Shown here: positions 8,812 through 64,000 of the stretch, in pieces
Position numbering within the stretch: position 1 is the first letter of the stretch
Layout of the letters: the number at the start of each line of letters is the position of its first letter
Origin: Chloroflexota bacterium
GTDB taxonomy: Bacteria; Chloroflexota; Anaerolineae; Anaerolineales; VGOW01
NCBI GenBank assembly: GCA_016197225.1
Contig: JACPWC010000024.1
Span: 1-64,000 of the forward strand
DNA length: 64,000 nucleotides
Direction: 5' to 3'
Position numbers and translations under genes: made by a program
The notes under the pieces: model-generated
Told to the model about the DNA's origin: nothing
Databases searched by the model: none
What the model saw: the letters and a program-made list of their open reading frames with translations, nothing else

Positions 8812-8840
8812 AGCGACGCGAAGCGGGCAAATCGCTCTAC
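8808..8840. repeat. small palindrome containing CGCGAAGCG
   Basis: GTAGAGCGA (8808-8816) is complementary to TCGCTCTAC (8832-8840). Between them lies CGCGAAGCG (8817-8825), the same 9-mer that is inserted in three other palindromes of this window, here followed by GGCA rather than an exact copy of the preceding GCGA. The first bases supply the stop codon of the epimerase gene. Confidence 0.6.
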
Positions 8841-8859
8841 AATGCCTGGGAGGAGCATC

Positions 8860-9642: not shown

Positions 9643-9746
9643 TGCCGACCGTTGGGCGGAATAACCTCCACAAATCCTGACGGGCTTCTCCACATTTCTT
9701 CCACAACGGATTGATAAGCTTAGAAAAACTTGCCAAGGAGTAATCA

Positions 9747-45951: not shown

Positions 45952-46341
45952 ATGGCCGATAGTCAACGACGCATTCTTTATATTGAAGACAACCCGGATA
46001 ACCGGCTTTTGGCGTTACGCATTCTCACTGCTGAAGGTTACGAGGTGTTGGTTGCCGCCAACGGCGCTGAAGGGTTGGCGAAGGCGGCGGAAAACAAGTT
46101 CAGCTTAATTCTGGTGGACATCAACATGCCAGAGATTGACGGTTACGCCGTCACTTCCCAACTTCGAGAAATGCCGCACCTGGCCCGCGTGCCCATCGTC
46201 GCCCTCACGGCCAACGTGATGCGCGGCGACCGTGAGAAGACGCTCGCCGCCGGGTGCGACGGCTACATTCAAAAGCCGATTGACATTGATATCTTCCCAC
46301 AACAACTTGCCCGATTCATCGAAGAGGCTCAGCCCACATGA
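45952..46341 (+). CDS. single-domain response regulator (receiver)
   Basis: A 129-residue CheY-like receiver domain: LYIEDNPDNRLL acidic pocket, phospho-acceptor Asp in LILVDINMPEIDGY, conserved Thr in IVALTANVM and Lys in GYIQKPID. It has no output domain. Similar DivK-type receivers shuttle phosphate or bind partners. The stop overlaps the next receiver gene by four bases, placing it at the head of the signalling cluster. Confidence 0.9.
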   Translation: MADSQRRILYIEDNPDNRLLALRILTAEGYEVLVAANGAEGLAKAAENKFSLILVDINMPEIDGYAVTSQLREMPHLARVPIVALTANVMRGDREKTLAAGCDGYIQKPIDIDIFPQQLARFIEEAQPT

Positions 46342-46826
46342 CGCTTCAGTCCACCACCGATCAATCAACCAACTCACCCAAACAGCAAAACGGCTCGACG
46401 CGCCAGCACCGGGCGATTCATGCTAAAGACGCGACCGTGCTTATTGTTGAAGACAACCCGTCCAATTTTGTGTTGATGGCCCGCATGTTGGCCTACATGG
46501 GCGTGCAACGCTGTGAATGGAAAACCTCCGGCTGGCAAGTCGTTGAGTTTGCCGATACCCTGCCGCAGGTTGATTTGATTCTGATGGACATTCGCCTGCC
46601 TTACGAGGACGGTTACGCCGCCCTCAACAAACTCCGTGAACATCCCCGCCTGGCCAACACCATGGTGGTCGCCGTCACAGCTGAAGCCAGCACCGAGCAA
46701 ATGTCCAGGGCGCGGGCCGCCGGGTTCGACGGCTTCCTGGGCAAACCGCTCGACACCGACAAATTCCCTGACCAAATCCGTCGGATGTTGCGGGGCGAAC
46801 CGGTATGGGAATTATCCACCCCGTAA
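46338..46826 (+). CDS. response regulator with N-terminal extension
   Basis: A 162-residue protein: ~30 residues of low-complexity polar sequence, then a receiver domain with LIVEDNPSNFVL, phospho-acceptor Asp in DLILMDIRLPYEDGY and Lys in FLGKPLD. Again no output domain. ATGA overlap with the preceding gene indicates coupled translation. It differs clearly from its neighbour, so the two may serve separate steps of a relay. Confidence 0.88.
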   Translation: MTLQSTTDQSTNSPKQQNGSTRQHRAIHAKDATVLIVEDNPSNFVLMARMLAYMGVQRCEWKTSGWQVVEFADTLPQVDLILMDIRLPYEDGYAALNKLREHPRLANTMVVAVTAEASTEQMSRARAAGFDGFLGKPLDTDKFPDQIRRMLRGEPVWELSTP

Positions 46827-46957
46827 GCCCGCCTTCAGGCTTCCCTTTAGCGAATCCAGCCGGCAAGCTATCCTTAACGCTGGCCTCTCAGCCTGCCTGG
46901 CGCCTCAGGTAACGTTGGACAACTTATTGGCATTGTCTCCCTGAAAGCGGCTCAGTT

Positions 46958-49900
46958 ATGTTGGCATCCATTCCTCCTTCTACCGCCCGTCGTCCTGCCG
47001 TTCCCCGCAGCCAGCTTATCCTTCTCGTCATCCTGCTCGTCATTGGGGCCGTGGCCGAGAATCTGATCCTGTTCAATTACCTCGATCTTTCGCAAAAGTT
47101 TCAAACGTCGGTCGCGCCTTCCATTAGCCTTCTACCAAAGCTCTCGGCTTTGCGGATAGAAGTGCTTCAATTACACGCCGAAGTCGAACTGGCACTCCAC
47201 CTGGACGTACCCGAGTTCACCTCTGTTGATGCGCGGCGGGCCAACGTGGCCGCCCGTCTGGAAGACCTGCAAACTGCCGCCGCCGGAAACGCAAAATATA
47301 CGCCGGCCATTGACGCCGTAAGCGTCCTGCTTGAAATCTACGATTCGCAAATCGCCGGCTTCCGCAATAGCCCTTCCGAGGCGCAAGTTCCGGTAATTGA
47401 GTTTGAACTGGGCCGCGCCTTCAAAGACACCGAAGCGCAGTTAGCCGGCATCTATAACGAGGAAGAGGCTTTGTTTTCCCGGGCAACCACCAACATCTTT
47501 GCCGCCGTCCGCGACACTCAGATCATCCTGCTGGGGGTTGGCGTTATTCTGTTCATCTTGAGCGCCCTCTTTGTCTTCAACACCCGGCGGACGGTTCAAC
47601 AGGAAGTTGGCCGCGTCTCTGAACAACTGCAAGTAGCCGCCGAGGTGGGTCGGGCGGCTTCGTCGTTGCTTAGCCTGGATGAACTCTTCGACACTACCTT
47701 GAGCCTGATCCGGGATCGTTTCAATTTTTATCATGCTTCGATCTTTCTGCTTGACGAGGCGGGCGAGAACGCCGTGCTTCGCGCCTCAATGGGCGAAGTG
47801 GGAGCGAGCCTGATCAAGAGCGGCTATAAACTAGACGTTGGCTCCGACACCATCATCGGCTACGTCACCGCCAACAACGCCGCCCGCGTCGCTTCCGACG
47901 TAAGCGACGACCCGGCTTATTTCCGGCATGAGCTACTCCCGAATACCCGGGCCGAGCTGGCCGTTCCTCTGCGCCAGGGCGGGCAAGTCATCGGTGCCCT
48001 TGACGTGCAATCGGTCAACAGCAACGCCTTCCCGAACGACCTGGTGCCCGTCATCCAAACCCTGGCCGACGAAATCGCCGTCGCCATCGGCAACGCCGCT
48101 CAGTACACGCGCGAAAAGGCTCGCGCTCAACAACTGGCTACGTTGCTCGAATCCTCAGTTGAGTTGAGCATCCCCCAAAGCAACTTCGACGCTTTGCTGG
48201 ACTTGATCGCCCGCCGGTCGTTGACGCTGATGCGAGCCAACGACGCCGAAATCTGGTTGCCCCTCAATGACGATGAAATCGAACTGCGAGCCAACGTCAG
48301 CGAGCCGACTCGGGTAGGGCAACGCCTGCGCCGGGGTGAGGGCCTGCCGAGTCAGGTGTTCGCCAGTGGCCGGCCCCTGCGCGTGGAAGATTACGCCAAG
48401 TGGGAAAGCCGGACCGGGGCTGTCGCCGGCGCCGCCTTCCGCGCCGCCCTGACCGTGCCTATGGCCTGGCAAGGCTCCACGGTCGGGGTGCTGACGCTCA
48501 CGCACAGCCAGCCCAACTGGTTCTCGGCAGATGATGAACGCATCGCCCAACTCTTTGCCTCGCAGGCGGCGGCGGCCATTGAAAACACCCGTCTCCTTCA
48601 GGAAACCCAGAACCGCCTCGGCGAACTTTACACCCTCAACCAGATCGGCCAGGCCGTTGCCGCCCAGACCGACTTGAACGGCCTGTTTGACGTGGTTCGC
48701 CGCGAAGTTCTGCGTGTCATCAACGCGCCGGTCATGTACATCAGCCTCTACGATTCCAAGCGCGAGCTTCTCGAAATCCCCTATTTCTACGAGAGCGGCC
48801 TGGTCACCTCGGTTGATCCTTTTCCGGTGGGGCACGGCCTCACCGGCCTCATCATTCAAACACGCCAGCCGCTGGTGGTGAACAACGCCGCCGAGGCCAC
48901 CACCCAGGGAGCCATCGTCGAAGGCGACCCGGCTGAGTCATATCTGGGCGTGCCGATCATCGTCCGCGAGAATGTCATCGGCGTGCTCGCGGTGCAGGAT
49001 TACGAAAAGCAAAACCTCTTCGCCCCGGCAGATGCGCGCCTGTTGTCTACCATTGCCTCGCAGATCGCGCTTGGCGTGCAAAGCATCCAACTCTACCAGC
49101 AAGTCCAGCGCCGCGCCGATCAACTGGCCGCCGCCTCGGAAGTGAGCCGGGCCACCATCTCCATGCTCAACCCGGCTCAACTTATTGTGGACGCCGTCGA
49201 ACTGATCCGGAGCCGGTTCAACTTGTATTACGCCGCCATTTTTATGGTGGACGATGAGGGCAAATGGGCGATGCTTCGGCACGCCACCGGCGACGCCGGG
49301 CGGCAGTTGCTTGAGAACGGCCACCGGCTGGAGGTTGGCGGCAACTCCATGGTCGGCGCGTGCATCGCTCAGGGGCAGGCCCGCATTGCGCTGGATGCCG
49401 GCAAAGAACGGACGCGCTTTGCCAACCCGCTTCTGCCCGATACCCGCTCCGAAATGGCCCTGCCCTTGAGAGTCGGCGAAACCGTCCTCGGGGCTTTGGA
49501 CGTGCAGTCCACTTTACACAACGCATTCTCCGAGTCCGACATTGCCGCCTTGCAGACGATGACCGATCAGATCGGCATCGCCATCCGCAATGCTCAACTG
49601 CTGGAGAATGCGCAACACACCCTCAAGGCGTTGGACTACGAAACCTACCTTCTCCAAACCCTCTTGGAAAATGTCCCGGACAAGATTTACTTCAAGGATC
49701 AGGAGGGCCGCTTCATCCGGGTAAGCAAGGCGGTGGCCGACAGGTTCAACCTGCCGCCCGAAGATATGATCGGCAAATGGGAGTTCGACTTCTTCACCGA
49801 GGCATACGCCCGCCAGGTTTACGAGGACGAGCAAACCGTGTTGCTCGCTAACCAGCCCATCTTCGGCAAGGTGGAGCAGGAACTGTGGCCCGATGGCTCG

Positions 49901-50764
49901 GCGACCTGGGCGCTGACCACGCGATTGCCTTTGCGAGACAGCGTGGGCCACGTCATTGGCACGTTTGGCATTTCGCGAGACGTCACCGAACTCAAGGCGG
50001 CAGAAGAAGCCTCGCGCCGCCGCGCCCAGCAACTGGTGGCCGCCTCGGATGTCAGCCGGGCCACCATCTCTATTCTTGACCCGGATCAGTTGGTGATTGA
50101 AGCCGTCGAAGCCATCCGTGAACGCTTCGACCTGTACTACGCCGCCCTCTTTCTGGTGGACGACGCCAGAGAGTGGGCCGTGCTCAGGCACGCCACCGGC
50201 GACGCCGGCAAGAAGTTGCTCGAACGAGGCCACAAACTGGAAGTGGGCGGCAACTCGATGGTGGGCTGGGCCGTCGCCAACCGCCGCGCTCGCATCGCCC
50301 TCGATGTCGGCGAAGAGCCGGTGCGCTTCGTCAACCCGTTCCTGCCCGACACCCATTCCGAAATGGCCCTGCCCCTCATCGTCGGCAACATCGTCATTGG
50401 CGCTCTCGATGTGCAATCCGTCCAGGTCAACGCCTTCTCCGACGCCGATGTTTCGGTATTGCAGACGATGGCCGATCAGATCGCCGTCGCTATTCAAAAC
50501 GCCCGGCTGTATCTTCAGGTCAACCGCCGCGCCCGGTTGGAGCAATTGATCAACCGCGTCACCGGCAAGATCCGCCGTTCGATTGACGCCGAGAGCATTA
50601 TCTCCACTACTCTCAGCGAACTCAATGACATTCTGCGCACCCGGCGGGCAGTGGCCCGGCTTGGCCCCGAGCACGACCTGCTCCCGCGGAAGCCCGGCTC
50701 GGGCCAGGGGAACGGCAACAATGGAAACAACGGCGGCAACGGCTCCCGACCGTCAGCGATCTAA
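46958..50764 (+). CDS. kinase-less membrane sensor with five GAF domains and one PAS
   Basis: A 1268-residue protein. A transmembrane helix (~18-40), a helical extracytoplasmic domain (~45-185), a second helix (~188-210), then GAF1 (~225-375), GAF2 (~395-550), GAF3 (~560-710), GAF4 (~720-880), PAS (~895-1020; YFKDQEGRFIRVSKAV) and GAF5 (~1035-1185). GAF1, GAF4 and GAF5 share a pattern like FxNPLLPxTRSEMALPL, and this variant is also in the next three sensors. A ~45-residue tail (~1192-1238) and a Gly/Asn-rich end finish it. There is no kinase, cyclase or DNA-binding domain. No chromophore Cys stands out. It probably senses and passes conformational signals to partners. Confidence 0.82.
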   Translation: MLASIPPSTARRPAVPRSQLILLVILLVIGAVAENLILFNYLDLSQKFQTSVAPSISLLPKLSALRIEVLQLHAEVELALHLDVPEFTSVDARRANVAARLEDLQTAAAGNAKYTPAIDAVSVLLEIYDSQIAGFRNSPSEAQVPVIEFELGRAFKDTEAQLAGIYNEEEALFSRATTNIFAAVRDTQIILLGVGVILFILSALFVFNTRRTVQQEVGRVSEQLQVAAEVGRAASSLLSLDELFDTTLSLIRDRFNFYHASIFLLDEAGENAVLRASMGEVGASLIKSGYKLDVGSDTIIGYVTANNAARVASDVSDDPAYFRHELLPNTRAELAVPLRQGGQVIGALDVQSVNSNAFPNDLVPVIQTLADEIAVAIGNAAQYTREKARAQQLATLLESSVELSIPQSNFDALLDLIARRSLTLMRANDAEIWLPLNDDEIELRANVSEPTRVGQRLRRGEGLPSQVFASGRPLRVEDYAKWESRTGAVAGAAFRAALTVPMAWQGSTVGVLTLTHSQPNWFSADDERIAQLFASQAAAAIENTRLLQETQNRLGELYTLNQIGQAVAAQTDLNGLFDVVRREVLRVINAPVMYISLYDSKRELLEIPYFYESGLVTSVDPFPVGHGLTGLIIQTRQPLVVNNAAEATTQGAIVEGDPAESYLGVPIIVRENVIGVLAVQDYEKQNLFAPADARLLSTIASQIALGVQSIQLYQQVQRRADQLAAASEVSRATISMLNPAQLIVDAVELIRSRFNLYYAAIFMVDDEGKWAMLRHATGDAGRQLLENGHRLEVGGNSMVGACIAQGQARIALDAGKERTRFANPLLPDTRSEMALPLRVGETVLGALDVQSTLHNAFSESDIAALQTMTDQIGIAIRNAQLLENAQHTLKALDYETYLLQTLLENVPDKIYFKDQEGRFIRVSKAVADRFNLPPEDMIGKWEFDFFTEAYARQVYEDEQTVLLANQPIFGKVEQELWPDGSATWALTTRLPLRDSVGHVIGTFGISRDVTELKAAEEASRRRAQQLVAASDVSRATISILDPDQLVIEAVEAIRERFDLYYAALFLVDDAREWAVLRHATGDAGKKLLERGHKLEVGGNSMVGWAVANRRARIALDVGEEPVRFVNPFLPDTHSEMALPLIVGNIVIGALDVQSVQVNAFSDADVSVLQTMADQIAVAIQNARLYLQVNRRARLEQLINRVTGKIRRSIDAESIISTTLSELNDILRTRRAVARLGPEHDLLPRKPGSGQGNGNNGNNGGNGSRPSAI

Positions 50765-50771
50765 ATCATTT

Positions 50772-51563
50772 ATGCCTTACGTCATCGCCATCTGCCACCA
50801 AAAAGGCGGCGTCGCCAAAACCACCACCGTGCTCTCGCTAGGGGCCTGCTTCGTCGAGCAACGCCATCAAACATTGATCATTGATCTCGACCCGCAAGCC
50901 AACCTGACCACTGCCGCCGGCCTGCACCCGGCCACCATGCGCCACTCGGCGGCAGACGTTTTGCTGGGCAATGAAACCCTGCTTCGCGTCAGCCGCGAAA
51001 CCAAACTGCCCGGTCTCGACGTGGTGCCTTCCAACCCCGACATGCTGGTGGTGTCGAAGGCGCTCTACGCCCGGTCGCAGTTTGAATACCTGCTGCGCGA
51101 CAACCTGGCCGGCAAAGACCTGGCCTTTTACGATTTCGTGGTCATTGACTGCCCGCCGTCGCTGGGGCCGATCACCATTAGCGCCCTCACCGCTTCGAAC
51201 CTGGTCGTCATTCCCACCCAGTGCGAATATTTTTCAGTCCAGGCCCTCGAAGGCATCTTCCAGATGATCCGGCTGGTGCGAACCAGAACCAACCCGCAAC
51301 TCATCTACCGGATGCTCATCACCATGTTCGACGGGCGCGGCCACCTGCACAGCCGGGTGCTGGCGCACATGCAACAACGGTTTGCCGACTCGATCCTGCA
51401 AACCGTCATCGGCGTAGATAGCAAACTGCGCGAGAGCCAGTTGGTGGGCAAGCCCATTACCGTTCACGCGCCGAACAGCCGGGGCACGCAACAGTACCGG
51501 CAGTTGACTCAGGAAATCTTGCAGTATGTCCAACAACGACAACAGTTACCAGAAACGGCTTGA
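50772..51563 (+). CDS. ParA-family ATPase inside the signalling operon
   Basis: A 263-residue ParA/Soj protein: Walker A KGGVAKTTTVLSLG, LIIDLDPQANLTTAAGL, and VIDCPPSLGPITISALTASN. No ParB neighbour. It starts seven bases after the sensor gene, and its last 38 bases overlap the next gene, whose product begins with a basic peptide and a coiled coil. ParA-like proteins such as ParC and PpfA position chemoreceptor clusters, so this one may place the GAF signalling complex. The longer frame starting at 50583 overlaps the sensor gene and is rejected. Confidence 0.87.
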   Translation: MPYVIAICHQKGGVAKTTTVLSLGACFVEQRHQTLIIDLDPQANLTTAAGLHPATMRHSAADVLLGNETLLRVSRETKLPGLDVVPSNPDMLVVSKALYARSQFEYLLRDNLAGKDLAFYDFVVIDCPPSLGPITISALTASNLVVIPTQCEYFSVQALEGIFQMIRLVRTRTNPQLIYRMLITMFDGRGHLHSRVLAHMQQRFADSILQTVIGVDSKLRESQLVGKPITVHAPNSRGTQQYRQLTQEILQYVQQRQQLPETA

Positions 51564-54015
51564 GTCACTGTTCTCTGGCATTGAGCCGCCAGAGCCGACC
51601 CCGCCGCCGCCCGAACCGCCCAGGCCCGAACCGCCAACGCCGCCCGCTCCCGACACAGGCGCATCGTCACAGGCCGAAGCGCAAGCGGCCATGGCTCAGG
51701 CCGAGCAACAAGCCGCCAAAGATCGTGAGCAAGGTGAAGCCGAGCAGGCCAGGCTTCGGGCCGCCATCGCTCAGGCAGAAGAACTGGCCGCCAAAGAGCG
51801 CGAACAACGCGAAGCCGAGCAGGCCAGGCTTCAGGCCACAATTGCTCAAGCCGAGCAACAGGCCGCCAAAGATCGTGAACAGCGCGAAGCTGAAGAAGCC
51901 CGCTTTCAGGCCGCTATTGTCCGCGCCCAGCAACAAGCCGCTCAGGAGCGCAAGCAACGCGAAGCCGAAATTGCCAGGTTTGAAGCCAGTGTGGATCGTG
52001 TGCGCCAGCAGGCCGCCCAGGAAATCGGCCAGCGCGAAGACGAACTGACCAAACTCGAAGCTGAACTGGCCCAGGCCCGGCAACAAGCCGAACAGGAACG
52101 ACAGGAACGTGAAGCCGCAATGGCGGCCATGGAAAAGTTGCGCGCCGCCCAGGCCACCGCCGGGGCGCCCGACACTGAGAAATCAACGCCCGCCCACGCC
52201 CTCCCCAAACCCGAGGCGGCCTCCCAAGCGAGTCCGGCGGCCAAACCCGCCCAGCACATTCCCGAAAAGGATTCCGCCCGGCACACCGCCAAGTTCACCA
52301 TCTCTCAGTGGCGCGAGAATTTGCTCAAAACTCTGCTGAACGGCGCAAGCGCCCTGGGCGCATTGACGCTAATCATTTCGCTCGTCAGAGTGATCAACGA
52401 TGGCGACTTGTTTCTGGGCCTCATTTACATTGTCGTCTACGCCGTCCTGCTGACGGCCACGTTCATTCGCATGCCTTACCGCCTGCGAGCCAGCATCTTC
52501 CTGCTCATCATGTACGGCCTGGGCGGGACGCTCCTGGTGCAATATGGCCTGAGCGGCAACGGGCGGCTCTTCCTCTTCGCCTTCACCGCCACCACCCTCC
52601 TGCTGTTGAGTTTGCGGGCCAGCCTGGGCGCGCTCATTATGAGCCTGCTGACGATGGGCGCAATCGGCTGGATGATGAGCAACAACTTGTTGACTACGCC
52701 CCGGGCCGAAGTGGTGGCCTCAACCGACTCGATCATCTGGGCCACCGGAAGCGTCGTCTTTCTCTTATTGGCTGTCGTGGTGATGCGCGGTTTGTCTATG
52801 CTCAAGACCGAATTCGTTTCAACCCGGTATCGCGAGCAGAGCATGGTGGAAGAACTGCAACGCGAACGCGAACAGCTTGAGCAACGCGTGCTCGAGCGCA
52901 CCAAACTCATCGAACGCCGCACCACCCAAATCGTCACCGGGGCCGAGGTGGCTCGCGCCGCCAGCGCCGAACTCAACCCCGACGAACTCCTGCGCCGGAC
53001 GGTGAACCTGATCCGGGAGCGTTTCGAGTTATATTATGTGGGCGCGTTTTTGGTGGACGAGACGGGGCGTTACGCCGAGTTGCGGGCCGGGACCGGCGAG
53101 GCGGGACAGACCATGCTTGCCAACCACCATCGCCTGGAAGTGGGCGGCAATTCAATGATTGGCCGCGCGGCCAGCGAAGGCCAGCCACGCCTGGCGCTCG
53201 ATGTCGGTTTTGAGGGCATTCGCTTCAACAACCCGCTCCTGCCCAACACCCGCTCGGAAATGGCCCTGCCCCTCATCGCTCGCGAGCATGTTCTGGGCGC
53301 AATTTCGATTCAATCAGATCAGCCCGAGGCCTTCTCGCCGGAAGACATCGTTTCTCTGCAAGGCATGACCGACCTGGTTGCTATTGCTCTGGACAACGCT
53401 CACCTCTTCCAGGAAGCCCAGGGCGCTCTGGCCGAAGTGACGACGCTTCATCAGCGGTATCTCTCGCAAGCCTGGGAGCGGTTCTCCCAAAGCCAGCACG
53501 ATCAGGCAGGCCGCTTGCCTACCTTTGCTTATGCCAACAACACGCTGATCCAGGGCGGCGCTGTGGAATTGCCGGCGATTGAGTCGGCGGTGGAAACACA
53601 GAAAGCGGTAGTGACCCACAGCCACGACGGCTCAACCGTCACCGTCCCGCTCAAATTGCGCGATCAGATCATTGGCGCAATCGCGCTGGAAGCCGAAGAG
53701 GCCGATCACGTCTGGGACCCGGACGAGTTGGCTCTCATTGAAGCCGCCGCCGAGCAGGCCGCTCTGGCGCTGGAGAATGCACGGCTGATCGAAGAGGCCG
53801 AGACGGCGCTGGCCGAAGCCCGTCGCCTGGCCAACCGCGAGCAAACCGTCAACGTCATCAGCGACAAGTTGCGCCGCCTGCCCGACGTGAACAGCATTCT
53901 CTCCACGACGCTGGTGGAGCTGGGCAAAACGTTGGGCGCTGGCAAAGGCCTGGTTCGGCTGAGCGGGCCAGGCAACAACCAAGAGATACCGGCTCGGAAG
54001 GTGAGCAATGATTAG
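51526..54015 (+). CDS. coiled-coil/membrane/2xGAF protein, putative ParA partner
   Basis: An 829-residue protein. The N-terminal peptide SYQKRLESLFSG and a Pro-rich stretch (20-42) lead into six 25-residue coiled-coil repeats (~55-204). Six or seven transmembrane helices follow (~265-430), then a helix (EELQREREQLEQRVLERTK), GAF1 (~470-620; NPLLPNTRSEMALPL), GAF2 (~640-755) and a C-terminal tail (~775-815) resembling that of the 5xGAF sensor. No kinase domain. The basic N-terminus before a coiled coil is what ParA-stimulating partners such as TlpT-like proteins have; the pairing is inferred from the 38-base gene overlap. Confidence 0.75.
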   Translation: MSNNDNSYQKRLESLFSGIEPPEPTPPPPEPPRPEPPTPPAPDTGASSQAEAQAAMAQAEQQAAKDREQGEAEQARLRAAIAQAEELAAKEREQREAEQARLQATIAQAEQQAAKDREQREAEEARFQAAIVRAQQQAAQERKQREAEIARFEASVDRVRQQAAQEIGQREDELTKLEAELAQARQQAEQERQEREAAMAAMEKLRAAQATAGAPDTEKSTPAHALPKPEAASQASPAAKPAQHIPEKDSARHTAKFTISQWRENLLKTLLNGASALGALTLIISLVRVINDGDLFLGLIYIVVYAVLLTATFIRMPYRLRASIFLLIMYGLGGTLLVQYGLSGNGRLFLFAFTATTLLLLSLRASLGALIMSLLTMGAIGWMMSNNLLTTPRAEVVASTDSIIWATGSVVFLLLAVVVMRGLSMLKTEFVSTRYREQSMVEELQREREQLEQRVLERTKLIERRTTQIVTGAEVARAASAELNPDELLRRTVNLIRERFELYYVGAFLVDETGRYAELRAGTGEAGQTMLANHHRLEVGGNSMIGRAASEGQPRLALDVGFEGIRFNNPLLPNTRSEMALPLIAREHVLGAISIQSDQPEAFSPEDIVSLQGMTDLVAIALDNAHLFQEAQGALAEVTTLHQRYLSQAWERFSQSQHDQAGRLPTFAYANNTLIQGGAVELPAIESAVETQKAVVTHSHDGSTVTVPLKLRDQIIGAIALEAEEADHVWDPDELALIEAAAEQAALALENARLIEEAETALAEARRLANREQTVNVISDKLRRLPDVNSILSTTLVELGKTLGAGKGLVRLSGPGNNQEIPARKVSND
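51688..52137 (+). repeat. six 75-base coding repeats (25-residue coiled-coil units)
   Basis: Successive units begin AMAQAEQQAAKDREQ, AIAQAEELAAKEREQ, TIAQAEQQAAKDREQ, AIVRAQQQAAQERKQ, SVDRVRQQAAQEIGQ and ELAQARQQAEQERQE. The first four are the most alike, also at DNA level, which points to recent duplication at the N-terminal side. Confidence 0.85.
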
Positions 54016-56296
54016 GCGTTTACTCAATCGCCTGGGCCGGGTGCGATCCAACTGGCCGCTGGCTACTCAGTTGGTTGTGGCGGTGTTGGCCGTGCTGGTA
54101 CCCACCACTGTGGCCGTTACTGTCATCGTGGTGGCAATCCTGCAAAACACGATTTCCGAACAAGTTGGCAATAATCTGTACACCATTGCCCAGTCCACGG
54201 CGCGGCGCGTGGCCGACCAACTGGCGCAGGAAGTAAACAACCTGGACACGCTGGCCCGCAGTCAAGCCGTCGTTGCTGACGTACAAACCGCCAATACCAG
54301 TTATCCGGCTTCCGAGGCGATTGCCCGCCAGGAACTCGATCAGATGACAGCGCAGTGGACGGCGGCTCAACCCAACAACCCGCTGGTGCTGGATCGCCAG
54401 AGCTTGACCTCCAGTATTGATTTACGCAACTTCGCCAATCGTTATCCCGACAACGTCGAAGTGTTTGTCACCGATCGCTATGGCGGTTTGGTCGCCATCA
54501 CCACCCCGCCCGAGGCCTTCGCCCATTCCGACGAAGTGTGGTGGACGCTGGCGTACAACAGCGGCATCGGCGCGGTGTACATCAGCCCGCCGGAATTTGA
54601 GCCGGTCAGCAATCTTTACACCATTGTCATCGCCGTGCCGATTTACCAGCCTAACAGCCGCGAAGTCATCGGCATCCTTCATGCCCGCTATCGCCTGCAA
54701 GCTTTGATCAACCAACTGACCGGCGTGGACGTGGGCGTGACCGGCGAGGCCATGCTATTCAGCGAGAGCGGCCTGCGGCTCGACACCACCTCGACTGAGG
54801 AGATTCGCATCCCGGAAGAAGAGTGGCGGAACATGCTGGACGCCCAGTGGCACATCGGCGAATTTCAGTCACAACAAAGCATGGTCGCCCAGGCTTTTGT
54901 CCTTACCGATGTCGGCCCGTCCGACATCAACAACCTGGGCTGGGCGGTCATCATCCGCCAAAACGTAAATGAAAGTCTGGCCGCCTCGCTGGCCGTCGTG
55001 CGGGCGGCGGGCGTCATCGGCGTCATCGGCCTGATCATCGCCATTGTCTTTACCATCTTCGTCGCCCGGGCGCTGGTGCAACCGCTGGCCGAACTGACGC
55101 GCCTGGCCAAGGAAGCCCAGAGCGGCAACCTCAACGTCAACGTGCCAATGGCGGGCCGCGACGAGATCGGCCAGCTCTCTCAAGCCTTCAATTCCATGAT
55201 TTCAGAAATCCGCGCCTCCACCGGCGTGCTGGAAGAAAAAGTAGCCGAGCGCACCACCCAGTTGGCGGCCATCAATGAAATCGCCGCCACCGTGTCATCC
55301 ACCCTGGAAATTGACGAAGTAATGGATCTCACCGTCAACCTGATTCGTGACCGGTTGGGCTTTTATCACGTTTCGATCTTCCTGCTGGATGAAGAGGGTG
55401 AGACGGCGATCCTGCGCGAGTCTACCGGCGAGGTGGGCCGCCAACTCAAAGAGCGCGGCCACCGACTGGGCGTGGGGTCGCAGTCCATTATGGGTTACGT
55501 CACCGCCAACCGCAAGCCGCGAATCGCGCTCGACGTGGGGTCTGACACCGTCCACTTCAAAAACCCGCTCCTGCCCAACACCCGATCCGAAATGGGCCTG
55601 CCGCTGATCGTGGGCGACACGCTGCTGGGCGCGCTCGACGTGCAGTCCACCCTCTCTAAAGCATTCGACACCGAAGACGTGGCGGTGCTTCAGAGCATGG
55701 CCAACCAGATCGCCGTTGCCATCAACAACGCGCGCCTGTTCAAGGAAGCGCAGACCCGCCTGGCCGAGATCAGCTTGCTCAGCCGTCAATACCTCAGCGA
55801 GGCCTGGGACAATTATTCCCGCTCGCACCCGGAAACGGTTAGCTTGCGCCTGGAAGGCAACACCGTCGAACCCGCGCCGGACGAGGCAATGAACGGCGAC
55901 CCTCTAAGCCTGACCCAGCCCTATTTGTCGAACGATGGCACCGAGATGTTTATCCCGATCACCTTGCGCGGTCAGGTCATCGGCGAATTCATGCTGAGCG
56001 CCCCGAACGAAGATCGGCAGTGGACACAGGATGAACTGAGGCTGGCCGAGGCAGTCATTGCCCAGGCGGCGCTGGCGGTTGAAAACGCGCGCCTGCTGGA
56101 AGAGACTCAAAGCGCGCTGGCCGAGACAAAACGCCTGGCCCGCCGCGAGCGCGTCATCTCTGAAGTGACCAGCAAGATCGCCTTTGGCTCGGACGTCAAG
56201 CGCATTCTGCAAATTGCCGCCGAGGAACTGCAACGTGCCACCGGCAGCAGCCGGGCCGTCGTGCGGTTAACCAGTCCGTCGCGGGAGGGCGCATGA
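54008..56296 (+). CDS. dCache-HAMP-2xGAF membrane sensor without kinase
   Basis: A 762-residue sensor. Transmembrane helix (~20-48), extracytoplasmic double-Cache-like domain (~50-325; NVEVFVTDRYGGLVAITTPP), second helix (~330-355), HAMP (~356-410; ALVQPLAELTRLAKEAQSGN), GAF1 (~425-575), GAF2 (~590-700) and a tail (~714-755; ISEVTSKIAFGSDVKRILQI). Cache domains bind small ligands such as amino acids or carboxylates. There is no kinase core or methyl-accepting region, so output must go through partners. It overlaps both neighbouring genes by 4-8 bases. Confidence 0.83.
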   Translation: MIRRLLNRLGRVRSNWPLATQLVVAVLAVLVPTTVAVTVIVVAILQNTISEQVGNNLYTIAQSTARRVADQLAQEVNNLDTLARSQAVVADVQTANTSYPASEAIARQELDQMTAQWTAAQPNNPLVLDRQSLTSSIDLRNFANRYPDNVEVFVTDRYGGLVAITTPPEAFAHSDEVWWTLAYNSGIGAVYISPPEFEPVSNLYTIVIAVPIYQPNSREVIGILHARYRLQALINQLTGVDVGVTGEAMLFSESGLRLDTTSTEEIRIPEEEWRNMLDAQWHIGEFQSQQSMVAQAFVLTDVGPSDINNLGWAVIIRQNVNESLAASLAVVRAAGVIGVIGLIIAIVFTIFVARALVQPLAELTRLAKEAQSGNLNVNVPMAGRDEIGQLSQAFNSMISEIRASTGVLEEKVAERTTQLAAINEIAATVSSTLEIDEVMDLTVNLIRDRLGFYHVSIFLLDEEGETAILRESTGEVGRQLKERGHRLGVGSQSIMGYVTANRKPRIALDVGSDTVHFKNPLLPNTRSEMGLPLIVGDTLLGALDVQSTLSKAFDTEDVAVLQSMANQIAVAINNARLFKEAQTRLAEISLLSRQYLSEAWDNYSRSHPETVSLRLEGNTVEPAPDEAMNGDPLSLTQPYLSNDGTEMFIPITLRGQVIGEFMLSAPNEDRQWTQDELRLAEAVIAQAALAVENARLLEETQSALAETKRLARRERVISEVTSKIAFGSDVKRILQIAAEELQRATGSSRAVVRLTSPSREGA

Positions 56297-59200
56297 GCCA
56301 GCCCGCGCACCTGCCCCGGCCAAACCAGTCCGGCTGGCAACTGGAACAATTCCGGCTCGTCTACCAGCTAGGCTCCCTGGCCGTCGGCCTGGGCCTTGTC
56401 ATCTACGTTTTGGCCTTCGCCTTTCTGCGCTACTGGCAAACACTGGTCATTGGCGGCCTGTTGGCCGTGGCGATAAGCGGCTTCTACATCTGTTGGCAAA
56501 TCGCCCGGCGCGGCAACCCCGAACGCGGCATCGAAGCCTTTGTCTACGCCATTGTGGGCCTCATGGTGTCGTCGTTCTATTTTCAATCCGACGTGATCGG
56601 CTTCAACATCATGGTGCTGTTTGTGCCGATTGTGCTGGCCAATTATCTGCTCCCGGCCCGTCGAACCCAGCGCGTAGTCGTCATCGGCAGTCTGGCAATT
56701 ATTCACAACCTCGTCATTGCCAGCCTCAACCCGTTTCACCCGCCAACCTTTCCGGCGCTGGCAACCGTCCTCTTAAACGTCGTTGTCGGGCCGAGCGTGC
56801 TGGTCGTCATTGCCATCGTCAACTATCGTTCCTCGCGCCGCACCGAGCAGGCCATTACCCAGTTGGAACAGCAAAGCGCCGGCCTGGAAGAAATCGTAAG
56901 CCGCCGCACATCCCAACTAGCCGTCGCCGCCGAGATTGGCCGCGCCGCCAGCAGTGTGCTCGATCTTTCCGAACTGCTTCATCGCACGGTTGAACTCATT
57001 CGCGACCGTTTTGGCTATTATCACGCTTCCATCTTCCTGTTGGACGAAACCGGAAGTCAGGCCGTCGTCCGCGAGTCCACCGGCGAAATTGGCCGCCAGC
57101 TCAAGGAGCGCAAACACACCCTGGCCGTCGGCTCGCAATCCATCATCGGCTACGTCACCTCGCGGCGCGCGCCGCGCATCGCCCTCGACGTTGACGCCGA
57201 CGCTGTCCACTTCAAGAATCCGCTTCTGCCAGAAACGCGTTCCGAAATGGCGATTCCCCTCATTGTCGGCGAACGCCTGCTGGGCGCGCTCGACGTGCAA
57301 TCGCGCGAGCCAAACGCCTTCACCTCCGCCGATGTGGCCGTTCTGCAAACCCTGGCCGACCAACTGGCCGTTGCCATCAACAACGCCGAACTCTTCGCCG
57401 CCCAACAACAACTGCTCGTCCAAAACCAGCAACTGCTCGAAGACTCGCAGAAGACGCTGGCCGAACTCAACGCGCTCACCGGTCGCCTCTCGCAAGAAGG
57501 CTGGAGGGAATTTCTGGAATCGCAAAGCGGCACCATCGTTGCCGAAACCGGCCGAGTGCCTTCAGCCAACGCCGACTCAGCCCTGGCCCAGGCGTTGGAA
57601 AAGGGCCGCCTCATCCAGACCGGCGGCGAACACGCCACCCTGGCCGCGCCGATTTTGCTTCGCGGTCAGCCCATCGGCGCCCTGGCCCTGGAAGAGATTG
57701 GCGCAGATCATGAGTGGACGGAAGACGACCTGGCCCTGGCTCAGGAAGTGGCCGAACACCTGGGGCTGGCGCTGGACAACGCGCGTCTGCTTGAGCAGTT
57801 GAACAAGGAACGTGAGCGGCTGGTCTTTCTGTTTGAGTCGTCGCAGGCGCTGGCCGCCAACCTGAGCCTGAACAACATCATTGCCACCGCCTTGAAGTTT
57901 GCCTCGTCCATCGGCGCCGAGCACGCTTACGTGCTGTACACCGGTGAAGGTCAGGCCATCTTCAGAAGCACCATCCCCGACCTCGACCGCTTCACCGGAG
58001 TCGAAACCCAGGCAGTGGTGAAAGCCGCCGCCGCCCGGGGCCTGGATCGCTGGGTGTTTGAAAATCGCCAGCCGGTGCTGGTGAAAGACGCCCTGCTCGA
58101 CGACCGCTGGTTGCCGCGCATCAGCCAGGAGCAGGTGCGGTCCATCCTCGCCGCGCCGCTGAGATCGCAACGCACCAACGAGGTGGTGGGCGTGCTGGCT
58201 TACACCCACACGCTCCCCAGCGCCTTTGCCGACGACCAGCTTCCCCTGCTCGACTCGATCAGCACCCAGATTTCGGTCGCTTTGCAAAACGCGATCCTCT
58301 ACCAGAATCTGGGTCGTCAGCAATATGGAGCGACGGCGCTGGCCAAAGCCACACAAGCCATGGCCCGAACCTTGAGTGAAGAAGACTTGATGCAGGCCCT
58401 GACCGAAGAACTGTTCAATGCATATAAGCCGAACGGAGTGACCGTCTTGCATTGGGAAGCCGCCACCGAGACCTTTACCCCCATTACCCTCAAACTCAAC
58501 CCCAACGAAGCCGATGCCTGGCCGGCTTTGCGCCAAAGCTTCCCCGCCAGCGACCGGCCAGACCTGATGGAAGTGATCCGCCGCCGCGCACTGTGGATGC
58601 AACGTCTCCGAGAAGAGCCGGAGGATAAAGTCCGCGAAACGATGAGCCTGCCCTTCATCTTTGACGAGCAGGTGGAAGCGGTGGTCGAGGTCGTTCACAC
58701 CGGGCCGTCGGCCGGCCTCAGCCCGGACGATGTCGAGTTGTTCCGCTCCATCACCACCTCGGCGGCCTATTCCCTGCAAACCGTGCGGCTCTACCAGCAG
58801 TTGCGCGAAACCGCCGACCGTCTGCGCGAAGTAGACCGGCTCAAGAGCCAGTTCCTGGCCAACATGAGCCACGAGCTACGCACGCCGCTGAATTCCATCA
58901 TCGGCTTCTCACGGGTCATCATCAAAGGCATTGACGGCCCGATCACCGACCTGCAACGCCAGGACTTGAGCGCCATCCACACCTCCGGCCAACACTTGCT
59001 CAACCTGATCAACGACATCCTTGACCTGGCTAAAGTAGAAGCCGGAAAGATGGATTTGTCGTTTGATAAAGTTGATCTGCCGGAGATCGTCAGGAGCGTG
59101 CTAACCACCATCAGCGGCCTGGTCAGGGAGAGGCCAATCCGTCTCATTCCGGAAATTCAACCCGACCTGCCGCCGGTGTATGCCGACAGCTTCCGCGTGC

Positions 59201-59970
59201 GCCAGGTGCTCATCAATCTGCTCTCCAACGCGGCCAAGTTTACCGAGCAAGGCTCCATCACCATCAAAGCCTTTGTCATTGACGCCTCGGCCCCGCGTCC
59301 GATGGTGCAAGTGACGGTGCGCGACACCGGCATCGGCATCTCTGAGGCCGACATCTCCAAACTTTTCCAGTCCTTCAGCCAGGTGGACGGCTCGGCCACG
59401 CGCAAGACGGGCGGCACCGGCCTGGGTCTGGCCATCACCCGTAACCTGGTGGAAATGCACGGCGGCGCCATTTGGGTAGAAAGCCAGTTGGGCGCCGAGA
59501 CGGCTTTCAACTTCACCCTGCCCGTTTACACCGAAATGATTGACGCGCCGGAACCGGCGCCGGGCGACAGCCGCCAATCCATCCTGGCCATTGACGACGA
59601 TGCGCGCCTGATTGACCTGTACCGGCGCTATCTCGAACCCAAAGGCTTCCTGGTTCACGGCCTCACCAACAGTCAGGAAGCGCTCGCCGCCGCCAAAGCT
59701 TTCAAACCTCGGGCCATCCTGCTCGATGTGCTGATGCGCGACCGCGACGGCTGGCAGGTCTTGCAGGAACTCAAGGATGACCCCGACACGCAACAGATTC
59801 CGGTCTTCATTTGCTCGGTGCTGGCCGAACACGAGAAGGCGTTGAGCCTGGGGGCCGCCGGTTATCTCGTCAAGCCGATTCTGGATGTAGACCTGTTTTC
59901 GGCCCTCAGCCGGCTGAATGGCGTGAGCGCGCATCATCCCAAGCCGGCCGTTGTCGCCGACAACTCCTAA
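56293..59970 (+). CDS. hybrid histidine kinase (TM-4xGAF-HisKA-HATPase-REC)
   Basis: A 1225-residue kinase, the only catalytic kinase of the cluster. Six transmembrane helices (~25-185), GAF1 (~210-365; NPLLPETRSEMAIPL), GAF2 (~385-505), GAF3 (~515-670), GAF4-like (~675-835), HisKA with phospho-acceptor His 860 in FLANMSHELRTPLN, HATPase (~960-1080; NLLSNAAKFTEQ, DTGIGI, GGTGLGLAI) and a C-terminal receiver with Asp 1145 in AILLDVLMRDRDGW. Phosphate could pass to its own receiver, the two receivers at the operon start or the receiver fused to the next enzyme. No HPt domain is visible in the window. Confidence 0.92.
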   Translation: MSQPAHLPRPNQSGWQLEQFRLVYQLGSLAVGLGLVIYVLAFAFLRYWQTLVIGGLLAVAISGFYICWQIARRGNPERGIEAFVYAIVGLMVSSFYFQSDVIGFNIMVLFVPIVLANYLLPARRTQRVVVIGSLAIIHNLVIASLNPFHPPTFPALATVLLNVVVGPSVLVVIAIVNYRSSRRTEQAITQLEQQSAGLEEIVSRRTSQLAVAAEIGRAASSVLDLSELLHRTVELIRDRFGYYHASIFLLDETGSQAVVRESTGEIGRQLKERKHTLAVGSQSIIGYVTSRRAPRIALDVDADAVHFKNPLLPETRSEMAIPLIVGERLLGALDVQSREPNAFTSADVAVLQTLADQLAVAINNAELFAAQQQLLVQNQQLLEDSQKTLAELNALTGRLSQEGWREFLESQSGTIVAETGRVPSANADSALAQALEKGRLIQTGGEHATLAAPILLRGQPIGALALEEIGADHEWTEDDLALAQEVAEHLGLALDNARLLEQLNKERERLVFLFESSQALAANLSLNNIIATALKFASSIGAEHAYVLYTGEGQAIFRSTIPDLDRFTGVETQAVVKAAAARGLDRWVFENRQPVLVKDALLDDRWLPRISQEQVRSILAAPLRSQRTNEVVGVLAYTHTLPSAFADDQLPLLDSISTQISVALQNAILYQNLGRQQYGATALAKATQAMARTLSEEDLMQALTEELFNAYKPNGVTVLHWEAATETFTPITLKLNPNEADAWPALRQSFPASDRPDLMEVIRRRALWMQRLREEPEDKVRETMSLPFIFDEQVEAVVEVVHTGPSAGLSPDDVELFRSITTSAAYSLQTVRLYQQLRETADRLREVDRLKSQFLANMSHELRTPLNSIIGFSRVIIKGIDGPITDLQRQDLSAIHTSGQHLLNLINDILDLAKVEAGKMDLSFDKVDLPEIVRSVLTTISGLVRERPIRLIPEIQPDLPPVYADSFRVRQVLINLLSNAAKFTEQGSITIKAFVIDASAPRPMVQVTVRDTGIGISEADISKLFQSFSQVDGSATRKTGGTGLGLAITRNLVEMHGGAIWVESQLGAETAFNFTLPVYTEMIDAPEPAPGDSRQSILAIDDDARLIDLYRRYLEPKGFLVHGLTNSQEALAAAKAFKPRAILLDVLMRDRDGWQVLQELKDDPDTQQIPVFICSVLAEHEKALSLGAAGYLVKPILDVDLFSALSRLNGVSAHHPKPAVVADNS

Positions 59971-59975
59971 TCGCT

Positions 59976-61661
59976 ATGGTTAACTTCACTCTCGAATGTA
60001 TTGATTGCGGTCATCGTTCACCGTCGGGCGGCGCGGGCGGCAAGTGCCAGCGCTGTGGCGGCGAGTGGCAGGAGGCGCGGTACGATTACGCCACCCTCGG
60101 CCCCAGCCTGAGCGCCATGCTGGCCAACCGCCAGTTCAACCTGTGGCGCTATCAGGACTTGTTGCCCCTGCGCAACCCGTCGAACATTGTCACCCTGGGT
60201 GAAGGCGGCACCCCTCTCTTCCACGGCTACAACCTGAGTCTCATGCTGGGCCGCCCCTACATTTACGTCAAAGACGAGCGGCAGGGGCCGACCGGCTCGT
60301 TCAAAGACCGGCAGGCGGCGCTGGCCATCTCGGCCATGAAAGAAAACGGCATTACCGAAGCCGTCGTCTCGTCCACCGGCAATGTCGCCATTTCGTATTC
60401 TGCTTACTGCGCCCGGGCCGGGATCAAACTGTGGGCCTTCCTCACCAGCATGGTTCCGCCCGACAAAATGCGCGAGGTGGCGCTTTACGGCACTCAAGTT
60501 GTCAAAGTCACCGGAACCTACGACCGGGCTAAAGAACTGGCCGGAGAGTTTGCCCGCCAGCGCAACCTGTACTTCGACCGGGGCGCGCGCAACATTGCCT
60601 CGGTGGAGAGCATGAAGACTCTCTCGTTTGAAGTGGCCGAGCAACTCACCCGCCTGTTGGGCGTGACTCCGGCCCGCCAGCCCAACGGTTCAACCGCCGC
60701 CCCGTGGCGAGCGCCCGACTGGTACATCCAGTCGGTGAGCGGCGGGCTGGGGCCGCTAGGCGTGGCTAAAGGTTTTTGGGAACTCAAGCAGATGGGGTTG
60801 ATTGACAAGATGCCGAAGCTGGGCGTCATTCAGGCCGAAGGTTGCGCGCCGATGGTCAACTCCTTCCATGCCGGGCTGGAGGTGGCCGAGCCGGTGATCG
60901 TGCCGCGCACTCACATTGCCACCCTCTCCACCGGCCAGCCGGGGCGCGTTTACACCCTGCTCCGCCAGCACATTTTGAAATACGGCGGCACGATGGAAAG
61001 TGTGAGCGACCAGGAAGCATTCCGGGCGATGCACGTGTCGGCTAAAATGGAAGGGCTGGCGATTGAACCGGCCAGCGCCGTGGCCTTCGCCGGGCTGTTC
61101 AAGATGGTGCGGGCCGGGTTGATCGCTCCAGACGACGTGGTGGTGATCAACGCCACCGGCCACACGATTCCGGTGGAGCGCGAAGTGCTGGGCGACGACT
61201 GGGCCAAGGTGCTCTCCGGCGAGGCGACGGAAGCCACTCCCCGGCCCCAGGCCGAGGGCCTGGTGGCGGCTCTGGAACGGCTCGACGAGCGCGTGCGCCG
61301 CATCGCCATTATCGAAGACAGCCCCGACGCCGCCCGCCTCATCCGCCGCATTTTGCAAGCGCGCGGCAACTACACCATTGACGAAGCCAACAACGGGGCC
61401 GCCGGTCTGGCCCTCGTCCGCCAGAACCTGCCCGACCTGATCATGCTCGACCTGATGATGCCGGAGATGGACGGTTTTCAGATGCTCGATCATTTGCGGG
61501 CCGACGAGGCCACCCGCAAGATTCCCGTCATCGTCATCACCGCCAAAGAGTTGACTCGCGAAGATCGTGAACGGCTGAGCGGCCAGGTGGAAGGGCTGTT
61601 GCAAAAAGGTTCGTTCATGGACGAAGACCTGCTCTCTGAGATGACTGAAGCCTTGAACTGA
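59976..61661 (+). CDS. threonine-synthase-like PLP enzyme fused to a receiver domain
   Basis: A 561-residue fusion. Residues 1-~445 are a fold-type II PLP enzyme of the threonine synthase group: an N-terminal zinc ribbon (CIDCG...CQRCGGEW), GEGGTPLF, the PLP lysine 110 in GPTGSFKDRQ, the phosphate-binding SSTGNVAISYSAY and the glycine loop SVSGGLGPLG. Residues ~447-561 are a receiver domain with IIEDSPDAARL, phospho-acceptor Asp 492 in LIMLDLMMPEMDGF and VIVITAKELT. The ATG at 59976 is five bases after the kinase stop. Threonine synthase makes threonine from O-phosphohomoserine; cysteate synthase-like activity is an alternative. Both halves keep their key residues. Confidence 0.85.
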   Translation: MVNFTLECIDCGHRSPSGGAGGKCQRCGGEWQEARYDYATLGPSLSAMLANRQFNLWRYQDLLPLRNPSNIVTLGEGGTPLFHGYNLSLMLGRPYIYVKDERQGPTGSFKDRQAALAISAMKENGITEAVVSSTGNVAISYSAYCARAGIKLWAFLTSMVPPDKMREVALYGTQVVKVTGTYDRAKELAGEFARQRNLYFDRGARNIASVESMKTLSFEVAEQLTRLLGVTPARQPNGSTAAPWRAPDWYIQSVSGGLGPLGVAKGFWELKQMGLIDKMPKLGVIQAEGCAPMVNSFHAGLEVAEPVIVPRTHIATLSTGQPGRVYTLLRQHILKYGGTMESVSDQEAFRAMHVSAKMEGLAIEPASAVAFAGLFKMVRAGLIAPDDVVVINATGHTIPVEREVLGDDWAKVLSGEATEATPRPQAEGLVAALERLDERVRRIAIIEDSPDAARLIRRILQARGNYTIDEANNGAAGLALVRQNLPDLIMLDLMMPEMDGFQMLDHLRADEATRKIPVIVITAKELTREDRERLSGQVEGLLQKGSFMDEDLLSEMTEALN

Positions 61662-62659
61662 TGGACTCCTCAGCGGCCCGCCTTCACGCCCGCAACGGCA
61701 TCGTCGCCGCTCTGTTCTCGGCCACCGTGCTCGGCCTGGCGCCTATCTTCGGCAAGCTGGCTCTGCGCGAGGGCATGGATCCGCTGGCGCTGGTTCTGCT
61801 TCGCACCGTTTCGGCGGCCATCATCCTGTGGGTCATCTTTCTGCTTTTTGGCCGCAAGTACATCTTCATCTACCCGGTCGGCTTCATTGCCTGCGCCGTG
61901 GCCGGGATTATCAATGGCATTGGATCGCTGTTTTTCTACAGTGGTCTGGCCATGCTCGACGCTTCGCTGGCCCAACTGCTCTACAGCATCAACCCCATCA
62001 TTCTGGTTTTTCTGCTACGGTTGGACGGCCAGCCGATTTCGCGGATCACTTTTGTGCGCATGATTCTGGCTGTGCCCGCCGTTTACCTCCTCACCAGCAA
62101 CACCGAGCACGTCGGCCAGCTTCAGGGGGTGGTGTTCATGTTGATCGGGGCGGCGGCTTATGCCCTGCACCTGGCCATTACTCAGCGCACGCTCCGCGAC
62201 ATGCCGTCGCAAACCGTGACGCTTTACACCTTGAGCGTCATGGCCATCACAGTCGCGCCCTGGGGTCTGTGGGCCATTTGGACAGGCACGCCGCTGGCCG
62301 AGGCGTCAGACGTGGCCTGGGCCGGCGTGATCGGCCTGACCCTGGCGACAGCTATGTCGCGGTTGTCGTTGTTTGTAGGGGTCAAACGGCTGGGCGGCAT
62401 GCAGGCCGCGTTGCTGGGATTGAGCGAATTGCTGGTGTCGCTGATCAGCGCCCTGATCTTCTTCAACGAGCAGTTGACGATCACCCAGTGGTCGGGCGCC
62501 ATCATCCTGATTGTCAGTGTGGGGCTGATTGGCCGCGAGCCGGATTTGGCATCACATTACGTGTCTTACGGCTGGCTGGGCTGGATGTATGGTCTGTTCG
62601 AGCGCCTGCACCCGCAACCTGAACCGCCGCCGTTGCGTTCCAAGAAGGCAACAAAGTAA
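61661..62659 (+). CDS. EamA/DMT-family transporter
   Basis: A 332-residue membrane protein with ten predicted helices in two EamA repeats (ATVLGLAPIFGKLALREGM in the first; GVIGLTLATAMSRLSLFVGV in the second). The family includes the threonine/homoserine exporter RhtA and other metabolite exporters. The start ATG shares one base with the stop of the threonine-synthase-like gene (TGATG), so translation is coupled. This makes export of an amino acid produced by that enzyme an attractive inference. The stop codon is supplied by the palindromic element that follows. Confidence 0.87.
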   Translation: MDSSAARLHARNGIVAALFSATVLGLAPIFGKLALREGMDPLALVLLRTVSAAIILWVIFLLFGRKYIFIYPVGFIACAVAGIINGIGSLFFYSGLAMLDASLAQLLYSINPIILVFLLRLDGQPISRITFVRMILAVPAVYLLTSNTEHVGQLQGVVFMLIGAAAYALHLAITQRTLRDMPSQTVTLYTLSVMAITVAPWGLWAIWTGTPLAEASDVAWAGVIGLTLATAMSRLSLFVGVKRLGGMQAALLGLSELLVSLISALIFFNEQLTITQWSGAIILIVSVGLIGREPDLASHYVSYGWLGWMYGLFERLHPQPEPPPLRSKKATK

Positions 62660-62730: not shown

Positions 62731-63522
62731 TTATCCCCCTCGTTCCGAAAACATATACCCCTGCCCGCGCACGCTCACCAGACACTTGGCGCTATGCGGG
62801 TACTGCGCCAGCTTGGAGCGCAGACGGCTGATGGTGGGCCGGATGATCTCGCGCGCTTCGCGCTCGTCGGCCTGGTAGCCCTGGGCCTCACGCACCAGTT
62901 GTTGAGCGGTGAGCACTTCGTCGGGGCGGGTCATGAGAGCGGTGAGCAGGCGGAACTCGGTGGGGGTGAGATGCAGACTCTTGCCACCCACCGTGGCCTC
63001 GCGCCGGCTGAGGTCAAGGACGATGCCGCCGCCGCTGGCCAGTTTGGGTTTGGAGTCCGGGCCGGGGGCCGCCGAGGCGGGGGATACTTCCGTCCGTAGT
63101 TCTTTCAAGTTCTGCTCGATCTGGTTGATCAGTTGATCCTTGTGCGACATTTCCATACGCCGGGCCAGCCCGCGCCGCACTTTGTCAATGATCACGTCGG
63201 GCGCGGACGGCTTGAGCAGGTAGGCAAAGGCCTGGTTCTCGATGGCCTGCATGGCCGTGTCGAGCGTGCCATGAGCGGTGAGCAGGATGATGACGGTTTG
63301 GGGCGAGAGGCGGTGCGTTTCGGCCAGCACCCGGATTCCGTCCATGCCGGGCATTTTGAGGTCGAGCAACATCAAGTCGAAGGAGTTGGTGGAGAGCAAC
63401 TGCAGGGCCTCTTCGCCCGAAGCGGCGGCCTGCACCTCACAACCGTCGAGGCGGATGATTTCGCTGAGTGAGAGGCGCATCGCTTTTTCGTCGTCTACAA
63501 CCAGCACTTTGGGAGCAGTCAT
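62731..63522 (-). CDS. response regulator, NtrC-like receiver with winged-helix output
   Basis: A 263-residue regulator. Receiver (~1-125) with VVDDEKAMRLS, phospho-acceptor Asp in LMLLDLKMPGMDGI, and LLTAHGTLDTAMQAIENQAFAYLLKP as in NtrC-type receivers. A linker helix is followed by an OmpR-like winged helix (~165-263; LHLTPTEFRLLTALMTRPDE and SVRGQGYMFSERG). No AAA+ domain, so it does not act through sigma-54. Its ATG overlaps the kinase stop by four bases. Confidence 0.88.
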   Translation of the reverse strand: MTAPKVLVVDDEKAMRLSLSEIIRLDGCEVQAAASGEEALQLLSTNSFDLMLLDLKMPGMDGIRVLAETHRLSPQTVIILLTAHGTLDTAMQAIENQAFAYLLKPSAPDVIIDKVRRGLARRMEMSHKDQLINQIEQNLKELRTEVSPASAAPGPDSKPKLASGGGIVLDLSRREATVGGKSLHLTPTEFRLLTALMTRPDEVLTAQQLVREAQGYQADEREAREIIRPTISRLRSKLAQYPHSAKCLVSVRGQGYMFSERGG

Positions 63523-64000
63523 TTCGTTTCCCTTTCCAACGGCAAATAAACAGTAAATGTGGCCCCGGCACCGAGCGTGCTGTCCACCTCAATTCGGCCC
63601 CGGTGCGCTTCGACAATAGTATAACTGACGGCCAGCCCCAGGCCAGTGCCCCGATCTTTAGTAGTGAAGAACGGCTCGAACAGTTTGACCTGATCTTCAA
63701 TGGGGATGCCGGGGCCGGTGTCGGTGAACGACACCTGGGCCAGGCCGCCCGGCCCATCATGGGCCAGGCCTGTCTGCAAAGTCAGGCATCCGCCACCGGG
63801 CATCACTTCGCTGGCGTTGAGCAGAAGATTCAGGAAGACCTGCTTGAGGCTGTTGCGGACGACCGGCACGGCGGGCAGGGTCGAGTCGTAGTTCTTCTCC
63901 ACCTTGATCTGGTTGTCGCGCAGTTGCTTGGCGGCCAGGGCCAGCACTTCGTCGAGCAGGCTGTTGAGATTGGCCGGGGTGAAGTCAATCGTGCCGGGCC
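63519..64000 (-). CDS. histidine kinase, C-terminal part (runs off the window)
   Basis: Only the last ~160 residues are present. They contain the HATPase core: N-box NLLLNASEVMPGGG, DTGPGIP, LFEPFFTTKDRGTGLGLAV and the ending GATFTVYLPLERETK, typical of NtrB-like kinases. The dimerisation domain and sensor lie outside. It is translationally coupled to the response regulator downstream and presumably phosphorylates it. Confidence 0.85.
   Translation of the reverse strand, partial: PGTIDFTPANLNSLLDEVLALAAKQLRDNQIKVEKNYDSTLPAVPVVRNSLKQVFLNLLLNASEVMPGGGCLTLQTGLAHDGPGGLAQVSFTDTGPGIPIEDQVKLFEPFFTTKDRGTGLGLAVSYTIVEAHRGRIEVDSTLGAGATFTVYLPLERETK

Follow-up and report, generated by a model that had tools for sequence, protein, structure and literature searches.

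PLP enzymes of fold type II (PALP family) can bear C-terminal regulatory domains, as is the case of the ACT domains of biosynthetic threonine deaminase IlvA and of the PRK05638-type threonine synthase (ThrC). Canonical ThrC (TIGR00260; PRK08197/NF006050 for the zinc-ribbon type) shows the PLP fold type II, the lysine motif PTxSFKDR and an STGN loop, and the PRK08197-type proteins include an N-terminal zinc ribbon as well. In two-component signaling, enzymatic response regulators such as CheB, PleD, REC-cyclases and REC-metabolic enzymes combine a full receiver with an enzyme and have a kinase beside them; receivers are also known on metabolic enzymes, and in archaea such proteins were described as narrowly distributed (PMC5847659). 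Furthermore, Chloroflexota contain hybrid kinases that end in two tandem receivers.

The gene described here, located in a window of 64,000 nucleotides (the whole stretch of DNA analyzed) from a Chloroflexota bacterium, shares features with all of these systems. It has the fold, lysine motif, STGN loop and zinc ribbon of ThrC, but differs in that a receiver is always attached, the curated cut-offs are missed, two segments are replaced and other ThrC-like genes exist in the genome. Compared with described enzymatic response regulators, its output is a PLP enzyme, its receiver is C-terminal and its occurrence extends over many families instead of one family or genus. The regulatory domain occupies the same place as in ACT-bearing PALP enzymes, though it is a phosphorylation module and not an amino-acid-binding one, and it belongs to the same subclass as the second receiver of the tandem hybrid kinases but is carried by an enzyme rather than by a kinase. 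No receiver fusion of a PLP enzyme or threonine synthase was found in the literature searched, the main reviews (Galperin 2006, 2010) being outside that search. The gene and its parts are the following:

59976..61661, + strand: PLP enzyme-receiver fusion gene, 561 aa (open frame; Pfam PALP and Response_reg; full-length homologues in many genomes)
59997..60056, + strand: zinc ribbon CxxC...CxxC, residues 8-27
60147..61169, + strand: PLP fold-type-II catalytic domain, residues 58-398 approximately (Pfam PALP; best Foldseek matches are threonine synthases)
60303..60305, + strand: PLP lysine K110
61170..61295, + strand: linker, residues 399-440, with the conserved helix EGLxxAL (427-433), from the alignment of 72 copies
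61296..61658, + strand: C-terminal receiver domain, residues 441-561 (Pfam Response_reg)
61449..61451, + strand: phospho-acceptor Asp D492 (Asp in 73/74 copies)

The reading frame runs uninterrupted from the ATG at 59976 to the TGA at 61661 on the + strand (561 codons plus stop). Pfam assigns PALP to residues 72-395 (E 2e-62) and Response_reg (PF00072) to residues 443-546 (E 2e-20; 73.3 bits over a cut-off of 30.2). The residues expected of PLP fold type II (PF00291) are present (K110, STGN at 133-136, SGGxGP at 255-260 and T/S394), as is the complete phosphotransfer set of the receiver, that is, the acidic pair E447/D448, D492, T522 and K544. An AlphaFold model built with 11 sequences (pLDDT 72, pTM 0.62) forms both folds with a disordered linker (398-427), and supports the domain assignment, the interface between receiver and enzyme being beyond its reach. 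The fusion of a PLP enzyme and a receiver proposed in the initial annotation is therefore real, given the open frame, the two domains over their Pfam cut-offs and the relatives in independent genomes. Its domain layout stands with small shifts of the limits to those listed above, and K110, D448, D492, T522 and K544 lie at or near the positions claimed. The motif ITAKE does contain the conserved Thr (T522), but the Lys assigned to it is in fact K544, in LLQKGS.

As the source genome is distributed in 126 contigs, it could be argued that the fusion is an assembly or frame error of this contig, a possibility raised at the outset. The chance of this is negligible, as the same architecture recurs in numerous genomes assembled independently, several of them single contigs and one of these (G400) apparently Herpetosiphon aurantiacus, which rules out such an artefact. 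The full-length fusion was detected among 60 relatives with E-values down to 1e-239; within the class, 249 genomes were sampled and 81 carry its clade (E <= 1e-75), and a sample of the phylum has it in 41 of 400 (E <= 1e-70), two families outside the class among them. Matches to fusions extend to E about 1e-96 and are followed, after a gap, by other proteins from E about 1e-56 (35% identity). Neither the relatives nor the class sample yielded a receiver-free member of the PALP clade of the fusion, the shorter frames of this clade being contig-end or broken copies. A genome-wide scan with near-exact 8-residue patterns recovered complete fusions in Anaerolineae and other Chloroflexota records only, and none was found in the plasmids searched.

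Three architectures can be distinguished. Type A (PALP-REC) usually occurs in the order kinase-fusion-EamA, and type B (also PALP-REC) often has a kinase before the fusion and a single receiver after it, some loci also containing a receiver-cyclase gene or a further ThrC-like gene; type C is PALP-REC-REC (about 700 aa). In G400, apparently the cultured H. aurantiacus, the fusion is a type-B PALP-REC protein whose gene is flanked by those of a large PAS/GAF kinase and of a single receiver; an apparent cultured carrier makes the protein amenable to experimental testing. The source genome encodes one type A protein (59976-61661) and one type B (contig G000:C126, locus L154). Around the latter (8806-10485 of this locus, - strand) are clustered genes for a kinase, for a single receiver and for a receiver-adenylate/guanylate cyclase. 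Several type-B fusions are adjoined by a stand-alone zinc-ribbon PALP in which FKDRQ is replaced by FKARG (L159:8827-9996; genes in L160, L157, and L230). In the type-C copy L215:5775-7865 the second receiver reads MNLTLPD, with Asn at the site expected for the phospho-acceptor Asp. In a genome of the same genus as the source (G004, L163:7897-9471), the copy is broken: PALP residues 1-232 (81% identical) continue in frame into the EamA transporter, as would result from loss of the intervening stretch or from a collapse of the contig.

Conservation was counted over 74 aligned fusion copies. The four Cys of the zinc ribbon, K110, S133-T134-G135-N136 and K214-T215 are invariant (74/74), and SGGxGP and T/S394 are retained in about 72 and in 73 copies, respectively. 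In the receiver, D448 was found in 73/73, T/S522 and K544 in 72/72, and D492 in every copy except the broken L163, so that these four positions are complete in all intact copies, the exceptions being L163 and the contig-end copy L205. The domain is thus competent for phosphorylation as judged by its sequence, as had been anticipated. Within the linker, residues 413-426 are variable while the helix EGLxxAL is well conserved over 72 copies (G428/A432 in 96%, L429/L433 in at least 90%). Pairwise distances of the PALP and REC portions correlate with r = 0.87, as expected if both domains have travelled together. In the tree, the fusions separate from 21 stand-alone relatives (97/100), and types A and B are recovered with 98/98 and 100/100, respectively; three stand-alone rows (L233, L237, and L240) were disregarded as misread frames.

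The fusion gene is part of a cluster encoded on one strand:

46338..46826, + strand: single-receiver response regulator (Pfam Response_reg)
46958..50764, + strand: multi-GAF/PAS protein (Pfam)
50772..51563, + strand: ParA/MinD-type ATPase (Pfam AAA_31, CbiA)
51526..54015, + strand: MASE11-GAF sensor protein (Pfam)
54008..56296, + strand: Cache-HAMP-GAF sensor protein (Pfam)
56293..59970, + strand: hybrid histidine kinase with three GAF domains, HisKA, HATPase_c and one receiver, the likely phosphodonor (Pfam)
61661..62659, + strand: EamA (drug/metabolite) transporter (Pfam EamA), found directly downstream of 33 type-A fusions

The genes of this cluster (46338-62659) overlap or lie a few bases apart, except for a first gap of 131 nt; 5 nt separate the hybrid kinase from the fusion, whose stop codon shares 1 nt with the EamA gene. 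This tight spacing on one strand suggests that the genes are likely co-expressed. In 58 of the 74 loci, the first same-strand gene upstream of the fusion was called as a histidine kinase. The source genome (4.8 Mb) contains 76 HATPase_c matches, including gyrase-type proteins, in about 4,500 genes (an estimate), and therefore kinase adjacency by chance would be expected at less than 2%. In the other 16 loci a kinase was not called directly upstream; some of these fusions follow a receiver-cyclase gene, some reflect contig or gene-calling effects, and L207-L210 seem to be truly devoid of an adjacent kinase.

The origin of the receiver was examined against a pool of 135 neighborhood receivers (27 of them the second of a tandem), from which loci fetched by similarity to the query (e.g., L057) were left out. 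For all 72 complete fusion receivers the best match was a receiver in second position of a tandem pair, in 68 cases within a called kinase. The receivers of the fusions and of the kinase tails consequently constitute one subclass, and from these comparisons it can reasonably be inferred that the former descended from the latter. The proposal that the adjacent hybrid kinase is the likely phosphodonor is thus reinforced both by its position and by the shared receiver subclass. The kinase in the window (56293-59970) has one receiver, whereas 24 neighboring kinases at other loci have two. In view of the kinase adjacency and of the retention of D448, D492, T/S522 and K544 in intact copies, it is very improbable that the receiver is merely structural, or takes no phosphate, and that the enzyme is constitutive.

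The reaction catalyzed is less evident than the architecture. The nearest solved structures, by sequence and by fold (Foldseek), and the best NCBIfam models all correspond to threonine synthase, which favors the view that the fusion is a true second ThrC converting O-phosphohomoserine to threonine at a rate set by the kinase. In the same sense, the Herpetosiphon-type copy reaches 166.9 bits with TIGR00260, only 0.2 bits below the cut-off of 167.1. Even so, this view is rather improbable. The fusion in the window scores under the cut-offs of both ThrC models (TIGR00260, 138.7 vs 167.1; NF006050, 236.4 vs 303), as do the Herpetosiphon-type copy with NF006050 (234.5) and a type-C copy with both (142.7 and 269.8). 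The segment NSxNPYRxEGQKT of canonical ThrC, to which Asn154, Ser155, and Arg160 of the Thermus thermophilus enzyme presumably map as contacts of the substrate phosphate, is replaced by DRGxRxIxSxExMKT in all the fusions and is kept in the ThrC of the source genome itself and in the other canonical ThrC sequences aligned; likewise, GNAGN is replaced by SGGxGP. The search for another stand-alone threonine synthase, advised in the initial annotation, revealed a canonical ThrC (L003; TIGR00260, 304 bits) with a ThrB-like GHMP-kinase gene about 0.7 kb downstream, and two further ThrC-like PALPs in this genome also exceed the TIGR00260 cut-off. Moreover, the fusion is linked to a kinase and has been duplicated, which would be atypical of a housekeeping gene. 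The missed cut-offs, the replaced motif and the canonical ThrC elsewhere therefore make it unlikely that the fusion is the enzyme of threonine biosynthesis, and its substrate is probably other than that of ThrC. The step taken in the initial annotation from the fusion to control of a central biosynthetic enzyme is thus weaker than the fusion itself; that the protein is the threonine synthase of this genome was not sustained, and its role as the sole one is rejected given the canonical ThrC and the nearby GHMP kinase. Cysteate synthase (TIGR03844, 98.7 vs 324.9) and threonine ammonia-lyase/deaminase (TIGR01127, TIGR01124, and NF006390, all far below their cut-offs) found no support either. Proteins annotated as "threonine synthase" in these genomes may hence be something else.

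Based on these data, we propose, with a probability of roughly 60%, that the fusion belongs to the enzymatic response regulators. Its output would be a PLP enzyme that derives from ThrC but has a different substrate, and the neighboring kinase would act as its switch. The GAF-bearing upstream kinase, aided by the Cache, MASE11 and GAF sensor proteins, would autophosphorylate and hand the phosphate to D492; the resulting conformational change of the receiver would be relayed through the conserved linker helix and turn the enzyme on or off. The enzyme would act on an amino-acid substrate other than O-phosphohomoserine, probably making no threonine; its substrate or product may be what EamA transports in the type-A operons. 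It is also conceivable, although unlikely, that on command of the kinase the enzyme makes an amino-acid-like signal or effector exported by the EamA transporter; if so, a two-component system would have as its direct output neither transcription nor cyclic di-GMP but a small molecule synthesized by a PLP enzyme.

Enzyme folds can serve anew as sensors, and the operon is rich in sensor modules and single receivers and includes a ParA. The PLP domain might accordingly be a non-catalytic sensor of a ligand or of PLP, or a scaffold providing protein contacts in a kinase/receiver/ParA assembly. This is quite doubtful, as the catalytic PLP residues are all retained, which a dead sensor would not need. 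The enzymatic response regulator proposed above would represent one PLP-enzyme output maintained across many Chloroflexota families, some of them outside the class. It always comes with a receiver, takes three architectural forms and has a kinase next to it in most loci, and it offers a direct test of whether aspartyl phosphorylation can control amino-acid chemistry allosterically.

Two other elements of this region deserve mention. The ParA/MinD-type ATPase (50772-51563) is the only one of its kind inside the signaling operon and its family is kept in 23 fetched loci, where it might position a signaling complex. Convergent with the operon, a kinase and a winged-helix response regulator are encoded at 62731-64000 on the - strand, and an equivalent pair is found in many type-A loci.
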